This document shows, piece after piece, positions 3,072-9,207 of a stretch of DNA of 64,000 bases. Under the pieces are notes generated by a model, which was not told the DNA's origin, searched no databases, and saw nothing but the letters and a program-made list of their open reading frames with translations. The position numbers and the translations under genes were made by a program. The number at the start of each line of letters is the position of its first letter. Positions within the stretch are counted from its first letter, which is position 1. This DNA is from an uncultured Enterobacterales bacterium (GTDB taxonomy: Bacteria > Pseudomonadota > Gammaproteobacteria > Enterobacterales > CALYQQ01), in the NCBI GenBank assembly GCA_945288535.1, contig CALYQQ010000005.1, forward strand, positions 1 to 64,000, given 5' to 3'.

Positions 3072-4772
3072 TTAGGTTAAGCCAATTATGTTACCATACT
3101 TATCTATATCAATATGAGGATAAGATGGTTGTGAGCCTAACCCTGGCATTGTCATAATATTACCTGAATAAAGGCGAATAAATCCAGCACCAGCAGAGAC
3201 TTTAATAGCAGTAATATGCATGACAAAATCATGTGGTACATTTTTTTGTTTAGGATCGTCACTGATTGAAAATTGTGTTTTTGCCATACAAAGTGGTAAA
3301 TGACCAAAACCGGCATTTTCTATTTCAATTAATTGTTGTTGTGCTAAAGGCGTTAATTCAGCTGCTTTGGCGCCATAGGCTTTTTGGACTTGATGTTGTA
3401 TTTTATCCGCTAAAGACAAGTTATCAGGATAGGGGAGATTAATATCATGAATATGTTGATGGCATGCATTTATGACATGTTGGGCAAGTTCGCGCGTGCC
3501 TTCGCCCCCTTTGCTATAGGCTTCACTTATTTCACATGCAAATGCACCACAGGACTTGGAAAAATGAGCAACAAAATTTAACTCTTCAGGTGTATCTGTT
3601 GGAAAGCGGTTTATTGCTATCACTACAGGTAAACCATAACTTTTTGCATTTTCAATATGCCATTTTAGATTTTCACAACCAATTTGTAATAATTCTAAAT
3701 TACGCTCCATAATTTCTTTAGGTAAATTCTGACCTGGTTTAATATCAAATTTACCACTGTTTGCTTTAATGCTACGTAATGTTGCAACAACTACAACACA
3801 TGATGGTTTAATTCCAGATTGGCGATATTTGATATTAAAATATTTTTCCATTCCCATATCAGAGCCAAAACCAGCTTCAGTCACGACATAGTCGGCTTGT
3901 TGCATACCGATCCTATCAGCTAACACAGATGAATTACCATGTGCAATATTAGCAAAGGGACCTGCGTGAATAAGAACGGGTGTATTTTCACTAGTTTGCA
4001 TTAACGTAGGTTGAATAGCATCTTTCATTAAGACTGTCATTGCACCAGCAACTTTTAAGTGTTCAGCGGTTATAGGTACCCCTGTTTTACTATATGCTAA
4101 AATGATACGTCCTATGCGTTGTCGCATATCCTGCAACCCTTCAGATAGTGCAAGAATAGCCATTAGCTCTGATGCAGCAGTAATTTCAACGTGCTCTTGA
4201 CGTTCAATACCATTTGTACCATTACCTACACCAATAGTGATATTGCGTAATGCCCGATCATTATGATCAATGACTCTATTCCATACAATACGATTAACAT
4301 CAATATTTAACGGCTCCAGTCCAGTTTTTGTCTTAAAGTCATCGCCTAATTGTTGTTCATGATATAATCTGGCATCAAGAGCTGCTGAAGCTAGGTTGTG
4401 TGCAGCAGTAATAGCATGAAAATCACCAGTAAGATGTAAATTAAGTCGTTCCATGGGTAATACTTGCGATTTTCCGCCTCCTGCTGCACCACCTTTAACA
4501 CCAAATACAGGGCCTAGGCTAGGTTGTCGTATACATGCTACGGCTGAATACCCAAGTTTATTAAGTCCTTGACTAAGTCCAATAGTAGTAACTGTTTTAC
4601 CTTCGCCCAGTGGAGTAGGCGTTATGCTAGTCACCAGAATAAGACGTCCGTTAGTAGGTGATTGTGATAAAATAGTCGGATTGACTTTAGCAATATCATA
4701 ACCGTAAGGAAGCAAATAGTTTGCAGGGATGCCCAATTTTTGGGCGATTTCATGAATAGGTTTTAGTTCCAT
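3072..4772 (-). CDS. fhs: Formate-tetrahydrofolate ligase
   Basis: Makes 10-formyltetrahydrofolate from formate, ATP and tetrahydrofolate, feeding one-carbon units to purine and fMet synthesis. At 566 residues it is full length for the family. The P-loop [16 protein letters not shown] lies near residue 51, followed by [19 protein letters not shown] and the family signature [15 protein letters not shown] near residue 297. The C terminus [11 protein letters not shown] is typical. The ATG at 4772 has GGA about 10 bases upstream. E. coli lacks this enzyme, so it is an accessory trait relative to the enteric core around it. It stands alone with its own terminator. Confidence 0.96.
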
Positions 4773-4940
4773 CAGCGTTATATCCAGTCAGTATAAAATT
4801 AATTCAGGACACCAGATGAATGTCGATTATGCCATAATTGAGGGGAAGGAATAACTATTTATTACCCAATAACACATTACTTTTATATAGTTCACTATAA
4901 CAATCTATTTATCTGGCTTTTTTGTTGAGGTTATTATTTC

Positions 4941-5927
4941 ATGTCTATTAAGCAGTTCCGTCTTGACCCGTTTTTAATATCAATAATTAGTGTCGTTATA
5001 TTGGCAACGCTCTTTCCTTGTCAAGGTGAAATAAAAGTTTTTTTTAACTATTTGACAACAATAGCTATAGCATTACTCTTTTTTATGCATGGTGCAAAAT
5101 TATCGCGAACAGCATTGATGACTGGTTTTGGCCATTGGAAATTACACCTAGCTATTTTTTGCAGTACATTTATATTATTCCCCTTATTGGGTATAATTAT
5201 GAAACCAATAACAATAATTCTAATTACCCCATTGATTTATAATGGGTTTTTATATCTTTGTAGTTTACCTGGAACGGTTCAGGCTGCTATAGCCTTTACA
5301 TCTGTTGGAAAAGGTAATGTTCCTGCCGCTATTTTTAGTTCAACACTTTCTAGTATATTAGGGGTTTTTTTGTCCCCGTTATTAGTCACGTTATTATTAC
5401 ATCAACAAGGTAGTGGACAAGAGCTAGGCAGGGCTATTTATTCTATTATAATGCAATTAGTCGCCCCTTTTGTTGTTGGTCATTTAAGTCGTCCTTTATT
5501 AGCGGCATGGGTTGAACGCAATAAAACGTGGATAAGTAAAATTGATCGCTCATCTATTTTATTAGTTGTTTATACTGCATTTAGTGAAGCGGTTGTTGGT
5601 GGAATTTGGAAACAAGTAAGCCCTTATACCTTGTTGGCAATCATCGTTGTTTCTTGTTTGTTATTATCCCTGGTTATATTTATTAATATTCTTATTGCAA
5701 GATTATTAGGATTTTCATTGCCAGATACAGTGACGTTAGTTTTTTGTGGTTCAAAGAAAAGTTTAGTTAATGGTATTCCAATGGCAAATGTATTATTTCC
5801 AGCAGCATCAGTAGGAATAATGGTTTTACCTCTTATGTTATTTCATCAATTGCAAATGATTGTTTGCGCCTTTTTAGCCCAACGTTATGCAATCAAAATT
5901 GAGAAATTAGAATCTGAAAAAAAATAG
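4941..5927 (+). CDS. yfeH: Bile acid:sodium symporter family transporter (YfeH-like)
   Basis: A 328-residue membrane protein with about nine to ten hydrophobic segments. The sequence resembles the E. coli YfeH type of the SBF-like family: LLFFMHGAKLSR near residue 45, LPGTVQAAIAFTSVGKGNVPAA near residue 108, and VFCGSKKSLVNGIPMANVLF near residue 268. The two polar helix breaks around residues 115-130 and 268-280 correspond to the substrate/cation crossover region of the fold. The substrate is not known. It is divergent from fhs across 168 bases. The symbol rests on resemblance only. Confidence 0.82.
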   Translation: MSIKQFRLDPFLISIISVVILATLFPCQGEIKVFFNYLTTIAIALLFFMHGAKLSRTALMTGFGHWKLHLAIFCSTFILFPLLGIIMKPITIILITPLIYNGFLYLCSLPGTVQAAIAFTSVGKGNVPAAIFSSTLSSILGVFLSPLLVTLLLHQQGSGQELGRAIYSIIMQLVAPFVVGHLSRPLLAAWVERNKTWISKIDRSSILLVVYTAFSEAVVGGIWKQVSPYTLLAIIVVSCLLLSLVIFINILIARLLGFSLPDTVTLVFCGSKKSLVNGIPMANVLFPAASVGIMVLPLMLFHQLQMIVCAFLAQRYAIKIEKLESEKK

Positions 5928-6157: not shown

Positions 6158-6188
6158 AAATTGCTTATTACATTAATAAGGAGAAAAA

Positions 6189-6395
6189 ATGCGACTACAT
6201 TTAGGTTATGTTAAATATTTTGATGATACCGAAGGTATCGGTTTAATTATTACCGACCATGATGGTCAAGAGATTTACGTAAATCGTCGTTCGATTGCTA
6301 CAGAAGATAAATCATTAGTGGTAGGTCAGCAGGTTGAATTTGGTGTATACCGTGGTTATCATGGTTTAACTGCATCCGATGTGCTTGGTTTATAA
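6189..6395 (+). CDS. Divergent cold-shock-domain protein
   Basis: A 68-residue single cold-shock domain, the usual CspA-family length. The beta-barrel pattern is clear: GYVKYFDDTEGIGLII at residues 6-21, EIYVNRRSI at 28-36, GQQVEFGVYRGYHGLTASDVLGL at the end. The RNA-binding motifs are altered: RNP1, normally KGFGFI, reads EGIGLI, and RNP2, normally VFVHF, reads IYVNR. Stacking aromatics are therefore lost at several positions. A strong AAGGAG lies 5 bases before the ATG. Function is unassigned; it may bind nucleic acid weakly or serve another role. A canonical Csp lies at 8918. Confidence 0.85.
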   Translation: MRLHLGYVKYFDDTEGIGLIITDHDGQEIYVNRRSIATEDKSLVVGQQVEFGVYRGYHGLTASDVLGL

Positions 6396-6597: not shown

Positions 6598-7395
6598 ATG
6601 TCTTATCAATGCCCTCTTTGTTTTCAATCATTGTCATTACATAATGCAGTGTGGCAATGTCAAAATAGACACAGTTTTGATCAGGCAAAAGAGGGGTATG
6701 TTAACCTATTGCCTGTTCAACATAAGAACTCTAAACTTCCTGGCGACAATTCAGATATGATAGCCGCGCGTCGTTTATTTTTAGATGCAGGCTTTTATCA
6801 TCCCCTTAGAAAACAGCTTGTTGATTTAGCTTTATCCTATACGGTAAAAGGTGAAGGAAATATTTTAGACATTGGCTGCGGCGAAGGATATTACACCTCA
6901 GCGATTGCAGATGCTCTGCCTGATCGAGATGTTTATGGTGTAGATATTGCAAAAATTGCTATTAAAAATGCATCAGCACGTTATAAAAACGTCAATTTTT
7001 GTGTGGCTTCTAGCCAGCGACTACCTTTTGAGTCTCAGTCCATGGCCGCTATTCTAAAAGTCTATGCACCTTGTAATTCAACAGAGCTGCATAGAATACT
7101 TAATGACAAGGGGATCGTTATTACTGTTTCTCCTGCAGCCGATCATTTATATCAGTTAAAAGGGCTTATTTATAAAAAGGTACAACAGCATAAACCAGAA
7201 AAATCTTTAACAGGTTTTAAAATATTGGATAAGATTTATGTATCCTATCCTATGACATTAACCGGAGATCATGCGATAGCATTATTACAAATGACGCCTT
7301 TTGCTTGGCGTGCCTCCGAATACGTATGGCAACAATTGAAAAATATGGAGCAAATGGTATGTCAGGCAGATTTTTGTTTAACTATTTACCAATAA
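6598..7395 (+). CDS. rlmA: 23S rRNA (guanine745-N1)-methyltransferase
   Basis: Methylates G745 of 23S rRNA using S-adenosylmethionine. The N-terminal zinc finger is intact, with Cys5, Cys8, Cys21 and His25 at the positions known in E. coli RlmA. The Rossmann motif I follows (LDIGCGEGYYT, near residue 92) and then GVDIAKIAI. The length, 265 residues, fits the family (269 in E. coli). It is followed by convergent ygbA 32 bases away. Confidence 0.95.
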   Translation: MSYQCPLCFQSLSLHNAVWQCQNRHSFDQAKEGYVNLLPVQHKNSKLPGDNSDMIAARRLFLDAGFYHPLRKQLVDLALSYTVKGEGNILDIGCGEGYYTSAIADALPDRDVYGVDIAKIAIKNASARYKNVNFCVASSQRLPFESQSMAAILKVYAPCNSTELHRILNDKGIVITVSPAADHLYQLKGLIYKKVQQHKPEKSLTGFKILDKIYVSYPMTLTGDHAIALLQMTPFAWRASEYVWQQLKNMEQMVCQADFCLTIYQ

Positions 7396-7427: not shown

Positions 7428-7751
7428 TTATTTAATTAAATTCTTATAAAGATGGCGAATAGCACTTATTGGATGAAAGAATAACATTCTTGGCCCAGCA
7501 TAACGCATAACTTGTTTTATTTGTTGCTTATAATCAGACCGATAACAATGACGAACACATTTTTCACAGGTTGTTTTCTCCTCACCAAATCGACAAAATG
7601 TTAATCGTTGTAATGCGTAATTTTGCAATGATTGACAGGATGAACAAAGATTAGAGGTATTTTTATGGTGATGATAGCAATAAAGTGCAATCATCTGTTT
7701 AACAGTTTTTTTTTCTTGTTGTATCTGTGGGCCAGTATTGCTGACAGGCAT
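7428..7751 (-). CDS. ygbA: YgbA-type nitrous oxide-stimulated promoter family protein
   Basis: A 107-residue Cys-rich soluble protein of the YgbA_NO family. Visible landmarks are KTVKQMIALYCYHHH near residue 16, CSSCQSLQNYALQRL near 36, then C-x7-C-x2-C (CRFGEEKTTCEKC) and the signature QVMRYAGPRMLFFHP near residue 80. In E. coli the gene responds to nitric oxide through NsrR. The Cys arrangement suggests a metal site, but the biochemical role is not settled. The start at 7751 has no strong Shine-Dalgarno. Confidence 0.85.
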   Translation of the reverse strand: MPVSNTGPQIQQEKKTVKQMIALYCYHHHKNTSNLCSSCQSLQNYALQRLTFCRFGEEKTTCEKCVRHCYRSDYKQQIKQVMRYAGPRMLFFHPISAIRHLYKNLIK

Positions 7752-8027: not shown

Positions 8028-8917
8028 TTATGAATTAATATGATTATTATGAACACTTACTGAACATATCATTTTTTGATAATTAGCCTTATATAAATTT
8101 CTATAGTGGATTAACTGAAATTTATCGGATAGTTATTATAGATAACTTTATTATTGAATAATAGAGCAAATAACAAGGTTCAACGCATATTTAAATTTTT
8201 ACAATATGAAAAATTTAAATATGAAAAGATGCTTAAATTAACTTATAGGTTAAATAATGTCTATTTTAATAATTAATTTTTAAATTCATTTTATTTTTAT
8301 AATATTTTTTAGTTAATAATATGTTAAAAAATATTATTATGAAATGAAAATGATATAATGATTTTTTAAATTATTTCATATAAAACAAATAGTTATCTAT
8401 TTAAACGCTAACTTTTATTGCAGCTAATAAAAAGTCATTATTTAACACACTATTATTAGTGCGGTAAATAACAAGTATTTTACATTTATTTTTTTCAAGT
8501 TTGTGAAATTTTCTATGTCTGTTTAATTGATCAATCACTACTTATAAAAATGAATAGAATTATTTTATCTTTTATTGGCTAATATTTATATAGTTTTCTT
8601 TTTTAATTGTTTATTCGTCAATTCTTTCTAGAATAATATAATATTAGTCTTATTATTTCTTTATAAAACATCTAAAAATAATTTTTTTTCGATACTTTCT
8701 TTGTTTTGTGATAAAACAACTTGCCTTTATGTAAAGAATATGAGGTAATGTCTATGACCATTAGTTAGTTGCTGGTTAAGATTATAATATTTGGTAAATT
8801 GCCCAAATCTAAATATTATTTAGATAGTGTTAATATTAGTTTTAACATTCAACGCAGCATATTGAATGGTCTGATATTGCCTGTGAAGGCATTGATATAG
8901 TTATAGGAAAAAATCAA
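8028..8917. other. Gene-free AT-rich stretch before cspE-like gene
   Basis: About 890 bases with no credible reading frame on either strand. It is very AT-rich, with long A and T runs. A small hairpin TGCCT-GTGA-AGGCA lies at 8878-8891, about 27 bases before the cold-shock gene start, and may belong to its leader. The promoter of that gene presumably lies in the last few hundred bases. Otherwise I see nothing definable. Confidence 0.5.
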
Positions 8918-9127
8918 ATGAGTAAAAAAACTGGCCACGTTAAGTGGTTCAACGAGAGCAAAGGTTTTGGCTTTATCACTCCAACTGATGGAAGTAAAGA
9001 TGTATTCGTACATTTCTCTGCTATTAATGGTAATGGCTTCAAAACTTTGTCTGAAGGTCAGCACGTTGAATTCTCTATCCAAGATAGTCCACGTGGCCCG
9101 TCAGCGGTAGATGTAATTACGCTGTAA
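8918..9127 (+). CDS. Cold-shock protein, CspC/CspE type
   Basis: A 69-residue single cold-shock domain with canonical nucleic-acid-binding motifs: [16 protein letters not shown] (RNP1 KGFGFI) and DVFVHFSAI (RNP2). It ends in the usual SAVDVITL. Members of this group act as RNA chaperones and transcription antiterminators. The Shine-Dalgarno is AGGAAA at 8905-8910. CspC and CspE cannot be separated by eye, so no symbol is given. It ends at a bidirectional terminator shared with rnb. Confidence 0.93.
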
Positions 9128-9155
9128 AATAGTATACATCAAAATCATCTTGAAA

Positions 9156-9176
9156 ATGCCGCCACTTTGGCGGCAT
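9156..9176. terminator. Bidirectional terminator between csp and rnb
   Basis: ATGCCGCCA (9156-9164) pairs perfectly with TGGCGGCAT (9168-9176) around a 3-base loop, between the convergent csp and rnb genes. On the minus strand the stem is followed by TTTTC; on the plus strand by AATCATTTAT. It is therefore stronger for rnb. Confidence 0.8.
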
Positions 9177-9207
9177 AATCATTTATATATAGAAATAATT
9201 GTGATTG

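Follow-up and report, generated by a model that had tools for sequence, protein, structure and literature searches.

The window analyzed in this study, that is, the whole 64,000-nt stretch of DNA, carries an ORF at 6189–6395 (+) that encodes a cold-shock-domain protein of 68 amino acids (MRLHLGYVKYFDDTEGIGLIITDHDGQEIYVNRRSIATEDKSLVVGQQVEFGVYRGYHGLTASDVLGL), with exactly the boundaries proposed in an earlier reading made without database searches (hereafter, the sequence-only reading). Its AAGGAG ribosome-binding site, read directly at 6178–6183 (+) and located 5 nt upstream of the ATG, is a good one, in agreement with what had been claimed. The cold-shock domain PF00313 was recovered at 41.9 bits (cut-off, 27) over profile positions 3–64 of 66, and the protein fell below the cut-off of every NCBIfam Csp model, the best being CspE (44.7 vs 120). 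Both RNA-binding motifs are altered in the manner first described: RNP1 reads EGIGLI (residues 15–20; codons at 6231–6248, +) and RNP2 reads IYVNR (residues 29–33; codons at 6273–6287, +), where the canonical Csp encoded at 8918 has KGFGFI and VFVHF, and the canonical motif pair is therefore absent from the 6189 protein. We also considered and rejected a retron effector, given that model NF038236 yielded 33.2 of 82 for this protein and a higher score, 55.1, for the canonical 8918 Csp.

The order of genes in the window is fhs, SBF, the 6189 gene, rlmA, ygbA, yoaH, cspC, rnb, and fabI. Upstream lie a gene at 3072–4772 (−), which we take to be fhs (formate-tetrahydrofolate ligase), and an SBF-like transporter gene at 4941–5927 (+; PF13593, 327.4 bits), also identified by synteny. 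The gene immediately downstream, at 6598–7395 (+), is rlmA, encoding 23S rRNA (guanine745-N1)-methyltransferase (NF008300, 374.8 bits; cut-off, 303), an assignment likewise supported by synteny. A ygbA-family gene (PF11756) occupies 7428–7751, between rlmA and yoaH. The genes beyond cspC are presumably rnb and fabI. The canonical CspC/CspE-type Csp at 8918–9127 (+), so classified by NCBIfam and by its position in the tree, scored 133.8 bits with the CspC model (cut-off, 137) and 131.5 with the CspE model (cut-off, 120). Although this Csp is of the CspC/CspE type, a cspA thermoregulator RNA (RF01766; 99.4 bits; gathering threshold, 78) is found at its gene, at 8825–9183 (+). The 6189 and 8918 proteins share the fold family, length, and order of motifs and are 31–32% identical, but the complete set of stacking residues and the thermoregulator RNA are found on the 8918 side only. 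Only one other cold-shock-domain gene was detected in the 2.52-Mb assembly (96.6% complete), giving three in total: this third gene encodes CspD, lies on another contig, and has a neighbor that we presume to be clpS.

The earlier statement that the barrel pattern and length are kept held up well, as judged by the Pfam match, the length of 68 amino acids, and a structural model. More specifically, the AlphaFold model (pLDDT, 94.8; 31 aligned rows) has five strands (residues 3–12, 17–22, 28–32, 48–56, and 59–67); its best Foldseek match was Salmonella CspE (3i2z; TM, 0.91), and VIA-align superposed it on CspA (1mjc) with a Z score of 14.5 and an rmsd of 1.2 over 68 residues. The protein is thus predicted to form a five-stranded OB/cold-shock barrel.

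Phylogenetic analysis, together with the ORF, Pfam, profile, and model data, assigned the 6189 gene to a group of Csps previously named group IV. In a tree of 108 rows, its product grouped with 36 group IV-type proteins (support, 100/100), and the same clade was recovered after the RNP1 and RNP2 columns were removed (100/99.7). A group IV profile built without the 6189 protein gave it 82.6 bits, vs 48.4 with the canonical profile, while the 8918 Csp displayed the reverse pattern (84.6 and 122.5 bits, respectively). Membership in the clade is therefore well supported by sequence comparison. We are unsure of the exact place of the protein inside or beside the clade, its terminal branch being very long (0.89–1.09). 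Placement immediately outside the remaining group IV rows was not rejected (p = 0.308; RNP columns removed), and one free tree put it beside Proteus (94/85); a constraint joining it to the group IV proteins encoded next to rlmA was not rejected either (p = 0.56) and gave a likelihood 1.56 log units above that of the free tree. E. coli CspF and CspH formed a separate branch (100/100) among the non-IV rows, with the 6189 protein elsewhere.

Group IV was described by Yu et al. 2019 (PMC6719143), the available portions of which list three Yersinia patterns (YPTB1423, YE1547, and YE105_C2577), give the RNP2 as VYVSNK, use the label "CspB," and call the group Yersinia specific. Table 1 of that paper places groups III and IV in subclade IIc, found mainly in Yersiniaceae and annotated as "involves in stress response in vivo." We read the printed VYVSNK as VYV[SN]K and decoded the RNP1 entry for IIc as [KE]G[FY]GFI. 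Our collection includes a Yersinia-like locus (L117) encoding a 69-amino-acid protein with VYVSK behind a canonical csp, and this protein fits both VYV[SN]K and the clade. From the presumed correspondence of L117 to YPTB1423 (compare the adjacent numbers YE1546 and YE1547), we infer that the clade is the Yersinia group IV. The 6189 protein shares with these Yersinia proteins an RNP2 lacking His-Phe, in which it has Ile in place of their Val and Arg in place of their Lys (IYVNR vs VYV[SN]K); unlike them, its RNP1 is EGIGLI, although RNP1 is descriptive for the group and not its basis. Indeed, other members of the clade also depart from [KE]G[FY]GFI, such as those of Proteus (GYGLI) and locus L131 (GIGLI).

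At growth points II–IV, transcripts of yptb1423 were reported to be more abundant in the cold (3°C, compared with 28°C), at a low level, in the available part of a study that terms the gene "an odd one out" (PMC6277586), and a human-plasma array study, likewise available in part (PMC2631605), tabulates the gene with a value of 0.579. Our search of the literature on YPTB1423, YE1547, and group IV, which covered these sources in part, found no direct activity test of a group IV protein, and a search for lpxK and ycaR with cold shock found no paper. Altered RNP motifs with loss of aromatics are also seen in E. coli CspF and CspH (group VI), whose function is given as unknown in the portions consulted of PMC6719143 and PMC4956666. 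These two are the reverse of group IV, however, in that they retain the RNP2 His and have lost Trp10 and the RNP2 Phe.

With regard to distribution, a two-protein alignment search of named genomes returned 48 loci, 47 of which were of the group IV type; they came from Proteus, Serratia, Providencia, Photorhabdus, Moellerella, Morganella, Arsenophonus, Fukatsuia, and one Enterobacteriaceae strain. Judged by sequence, the clade is therefore wider than Yersinia, and the tree of 322 Enterobacteriales Csps in Figure 4 of PMC6719143, a source seen here in part, may hold other members. A first scan of contigs gave no match; the second was run in part with the pattern [DL][GE]Q[ED]IYVN, which biases that part toward sequences having Asn as residue 32; the genome searches carried no such bias. 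In a census of one family (f18), 76 of 392 genomes (hand count) had a match of at least 91 bits, with the next matches (≤87.3 bits) being intermixed with canonical Csps. At an E value of 3e-25, 7 of 394 genomes matched at the level of the order (six of f18 and the window's own) and 1 of 369 at the level of the class (again the window's own), so that at this threshold none was found outside f18 and the window's own family. Since the 6189 protein itself scores only 82.6 bits when left out of the model, diverged members would be missed by the census and by the order and class searches. We rejected the idea that the gene is cargo of a mobile element: five phage matches were only 33–37% identical, and all of the plasmid matches (112 records) were below 60%, the best two being the Proteus mirabilis records of ~4.1 Mb in which tblastn of the plasmid collection found a full-length 46% match. 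The size and gene content of these plasmid-filed records (L034 and L127; NZ_OL790811.1) indicate that they are likely chromosomes.

Group IV genes occur at two main locations. Among 68 scored loci, a set that includes some genomes twice, the gene follows lpxK in 62, either by itself or preceded by a canonical csp; of the rest, three lie at rlmA, two before ycaR-kdsB without a detected lpxK, and one elsewhere. In Yersinia, the gene is located between lpxK and ycaR. In the genome of the window, lpxK, ycaR, and kdsB are adjacent and no csp is present there; the 6189 gene instead lies by rlmA, with no canonical csp directly before it. The addition of seven further loci brought the rlmA type to ten (L128, L131, L140, and L143–L149), and in the window and all ten of these, rlmA directly follows the group IV gene. 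Each of the ten contains fhs (70–72% identical to that of the window), an LpxL/LpxP-family gene (acyltransferase identity tested in two of them), a canonical csp, the group IV gene, rlmA, yoaH, and cspC; SBF was found in seven (two as partial matches) and rnb in nine. The genes shared with the window have the same order and orientation. ygbA was sought in the ten syntenic stretches without a match, and most of them have sdaA and nudL-like genes at that place. The rlmA-type proteins (43–50% identical to the 6189 protein in nine of ten cases) resemble it in an RNP2 of the form (L/V)(Y/F)V(D/N)R, in unusual RNP1s (GIGLI in four, GFGLI and GFGWI in two each, and GVGLI and CVGLI in one each), and in a loop that lacks one residue relative to most members from the lpxK locus. 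They differ from it in having kept Trp10 and in being encoded immediately downstream of a canonical csp; in the window, neither the acyltransferase gene nor a canonical csp lies directly beside the group IV gene.

The pair formed by a canonical csp and a group IV gene adjoins lipid A genes at both locations (lpxK-kdsB and the LpxL/LpxP-family gene), as seen at L131 (8480–10309), L115–L118, and L125 (1558–2502). E. coli cspE likewise adjoins a lipid A gene, pagP. This adjacency may be due to chance.

The structured leader attributed to the 6189 gene was not borne out, as four overlapping segments folded no better than shuffled sequences (z, −0.49 to −1.24). Rfam gave no family match at this leader, the cspA thermoregulator lying instead at the canonical gene, and the number of promoter-like matches near the 6189 gene (5) was that expected by chance (5.3). 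Hence, of the grounds on which the gene had been called probably expressed, the ribosome-binding site stands, and it is now joined by conservation. In an Rfam scan of seven other loci, the thermoregulator was present at the canonical csp of five (L116, L117, L118, L131, and L143), in which the group IV gene has such a csp as its neighbor, and was not found in the other two, L034 and L064; no match occurred at any group IV gene in these loci or the window. A terminator-like hairpin at 6224–6240, comprising codons before and in RNP1, produced 2 overlapping matches vs 0.2 expected. We dropped this candidate because 6.6% of synonymous-codon shuffles fold equally well, and it is not common to relatives: among the 11 group IV relatives listed, only that of L133 had z < −2.

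The activity of Csps, which are textbook RNA chaperones, is attributed to aromatic residues that form a patch on the protein surface. An alignment of homologues, the check that the sequence-only reading had itself named, showed that the RNP2 changes are conserved across the clade. We compared 55 distinct group IV proteins (out of 82 records; E. coli CspE numbering), leaving out an unrelated Rhodobacteraceae match (L111) and one canonical row of L147 that the group IV profile had picked up at 88 bits. His32 is kept in a single protein (that of L132) and is thus missing from 54 of the 55, but is present in all 71 non-IV rows. Position 33 is never aromatic (Arg in 42, Lys in 8, Thr in 4, and Ser in 1) but is Phe or Tyr in 68 of the 71 non-IV rows, the exceptions being CspF, CspH, and L020; position 41 is also aromatic in none of the 55. 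Conversely, positions 10 and 11 are aromatic in all 55, position 30 in 52, and position 17 in 47, and position 19 is Phe in 35.

The base-stacking sites of Bs-CspB, according to the consulted part of PMC4493011, are N1 (Phe30 and Phe38), N2 (His29), N3 (Phe27), and N4 (Phe17). In our alignment, they correspond to CspE positions 33 and 41, 32, 30, and 19, respectively. The 6189 protein has Tyr10, Phe11, Glu15, Ile17, Leu19, Tyr30, Asn32, Arg33, and Asp41; accordingly, N1, N2, and N4 are lost, and only N3 is aromatic. Both Phe residues of RNP1 are replaced (by Ile and Leu, the second being site N4), and the RNP1 Lys position is Glu. The net charge (K+R−D−E) is −4, compared with a clade mean of +1.2. 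The L132 protein (~4907–5113, from a genome of ~2.2 Mb) has IYVHK, with the RNP2 His kept and the Phe lost, and represents a possible reversal or intermediate.

The relatives of the 6189 gene show purifying selection by sequence comparison. We estimated dN/dS for pairs of relatives within and between genera, drawn from families other than the window's own, and 20 of 23 pairs gave values, all from 0 to 0.25 (two were of unequal length and one was saturated; one of the 20 is nearly saturated, with a dS of 3.0). This implies that the remodeled face is maintained in those relatives. In a crude neutral simulation that started from a relative and had no indels, 800 of 20,000 runs still had an open frame at 0.5 changes per site, 392 at 0.75, and 296 at 1.0. 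Given that the RNP2 change is fixed in the whole clade and that so few neutral runs stay open, more than chance is involved; with the conserved RNP2 changes and the purifying selection in the clade, the face looks remodeled rather than eroded. Collectively, the 6189 gene is a genuine variant, conserved in relatives, within a cold-shock group that has been described in part, and is neither an artifact nor a new kind of protein.

Since the replacement of several of the RNA-gripping aromatics is stereotyped, the 6189 protein probably handles RNA differently from its normal sister Csps. On balance, we favor the view that the 6189 protein is a folded group IV paralogue, in its rlmA-upstream version, that probably binds single-stranded RNA weakly over a short footprint, with little or no melting. 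Tyr10, Phe11, and Tyr30, along with the basic Arg33 and Arg34, would still contact single-stranded RNA, and the loss of N1, N2, and N4 stacking would lower affinity, shorten the footprint, and leave little or no strand melting. The protein would then act beside the canonical Csps as a specialized RNA binder or modulator and not as an RNA chaperone. Melting by CspE reportedly requires Phe17, Phe30, and His32 (work of Phadtare), and of these positions only 30 is still aromatic in the 6189 protein, in support of the absence of melting. Arg33 (Arg or Lys in 50 of the 55 members) could suit a phosphate contact; the net charge of −4 and the Glu at the RNP1 Lys position weaken this idea. More tentatively, it is possible that the clade as a whole swapped N1/N2 stacking for a conserved basic patch and a different mode of RNA handling, and that a subclade including the 6189 protein also gave up RNP1; one example would be a nonmelting binder that moderates or steers the canonical Csp whose gene is often its neighbor.

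The suggestion that the protein may have lost binding or gained another partner stands in part: the conserved, remodeled face speaks for altered binding, whereas the aromatic residues at positions 10, 11, and 30 speak against its complete loss. We regard it as rather unlikely that the protein has lost single-strand nucleic acid binding and works through a protein partner. The single aromatic stacking site and the negative charge would suit such a role, and proteins can bind canonical Csps, as in the solved CspC-endolysin complex (8h1i). Nevertheless, the positions of Trp10, Phe11, and Phe30 stay aromatic in nearly all of the clade, and no partner was found among the neighbors scored at both types of locus, where the only recurring genes are those of lipid A and, at some of the loci, the canonical csp, neither of them directly beside the 6189 gene in the window. 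That the protein is an ordinary, fully active Csp in which the changes are tolerated appears improbable. The YB-1 cold-shock domain does bind nucleic acid despite having Gln in place of both Phe30 and Phe38, but it retains the equivalents of His29, Phe27, and Phe17, for which the 6189 protein has Asn, Tyr, and Leu (PMC4493011, in the part consulted). The cold induction of yptb1423, taken for a relative (PMC6277586, consulted in part), agrees with an ordinary Csp, while the His kept in every non-IV row does not; moreover, the portion consulted of PMC10819108 does not consider CspF and CspH, which lack conserved RNP aromatics, to be true RNA chaperones.

A decaying gene heading for loss would explain the very long terminal branch and the identity of 50–53% to its 15 best relatives, whereas the 8918 Csp is 88–90% identical to cspC of the ten syntenic loci. 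Yet the frame and ribosome-binding site are intact, few of the neutral runs stayed open, and the relatives are constrained, so that we give decay very little credence. Finally, the 6189 and 8918 genes lie within ~3 kb on one strand, and E. coli cspC is directly upstream of rlmA, as might be expected if the 6189 gene had arisen by local duplication of the 8918 cspC, had diverged alone, and had come to look like group IV by convergence. We consider this scarcely credible: a clade constrained to contain the 8918 gene was rejected by the AU test (p = 0.0046; RNP columns included), as was one with 8918, E. coli CspC and CspE, and L023 (p = 0.017), the group IV placement survives removal of the RNP columns, and in ten other loci this place is occupied by a group IV gene, with cspC present in addition.

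Our findings extend a group described as Yersinia specific to a number of other genera in the order. Because part of the aromatic patch has undergone a stereotyped replacement throughout a conserved clade, nature has provided an experiment by which binding, melting, and antitermination could be told apart, and the 6189 and 8918 proteins, encoded in one genome, provide a ready-made pair for that comparison.
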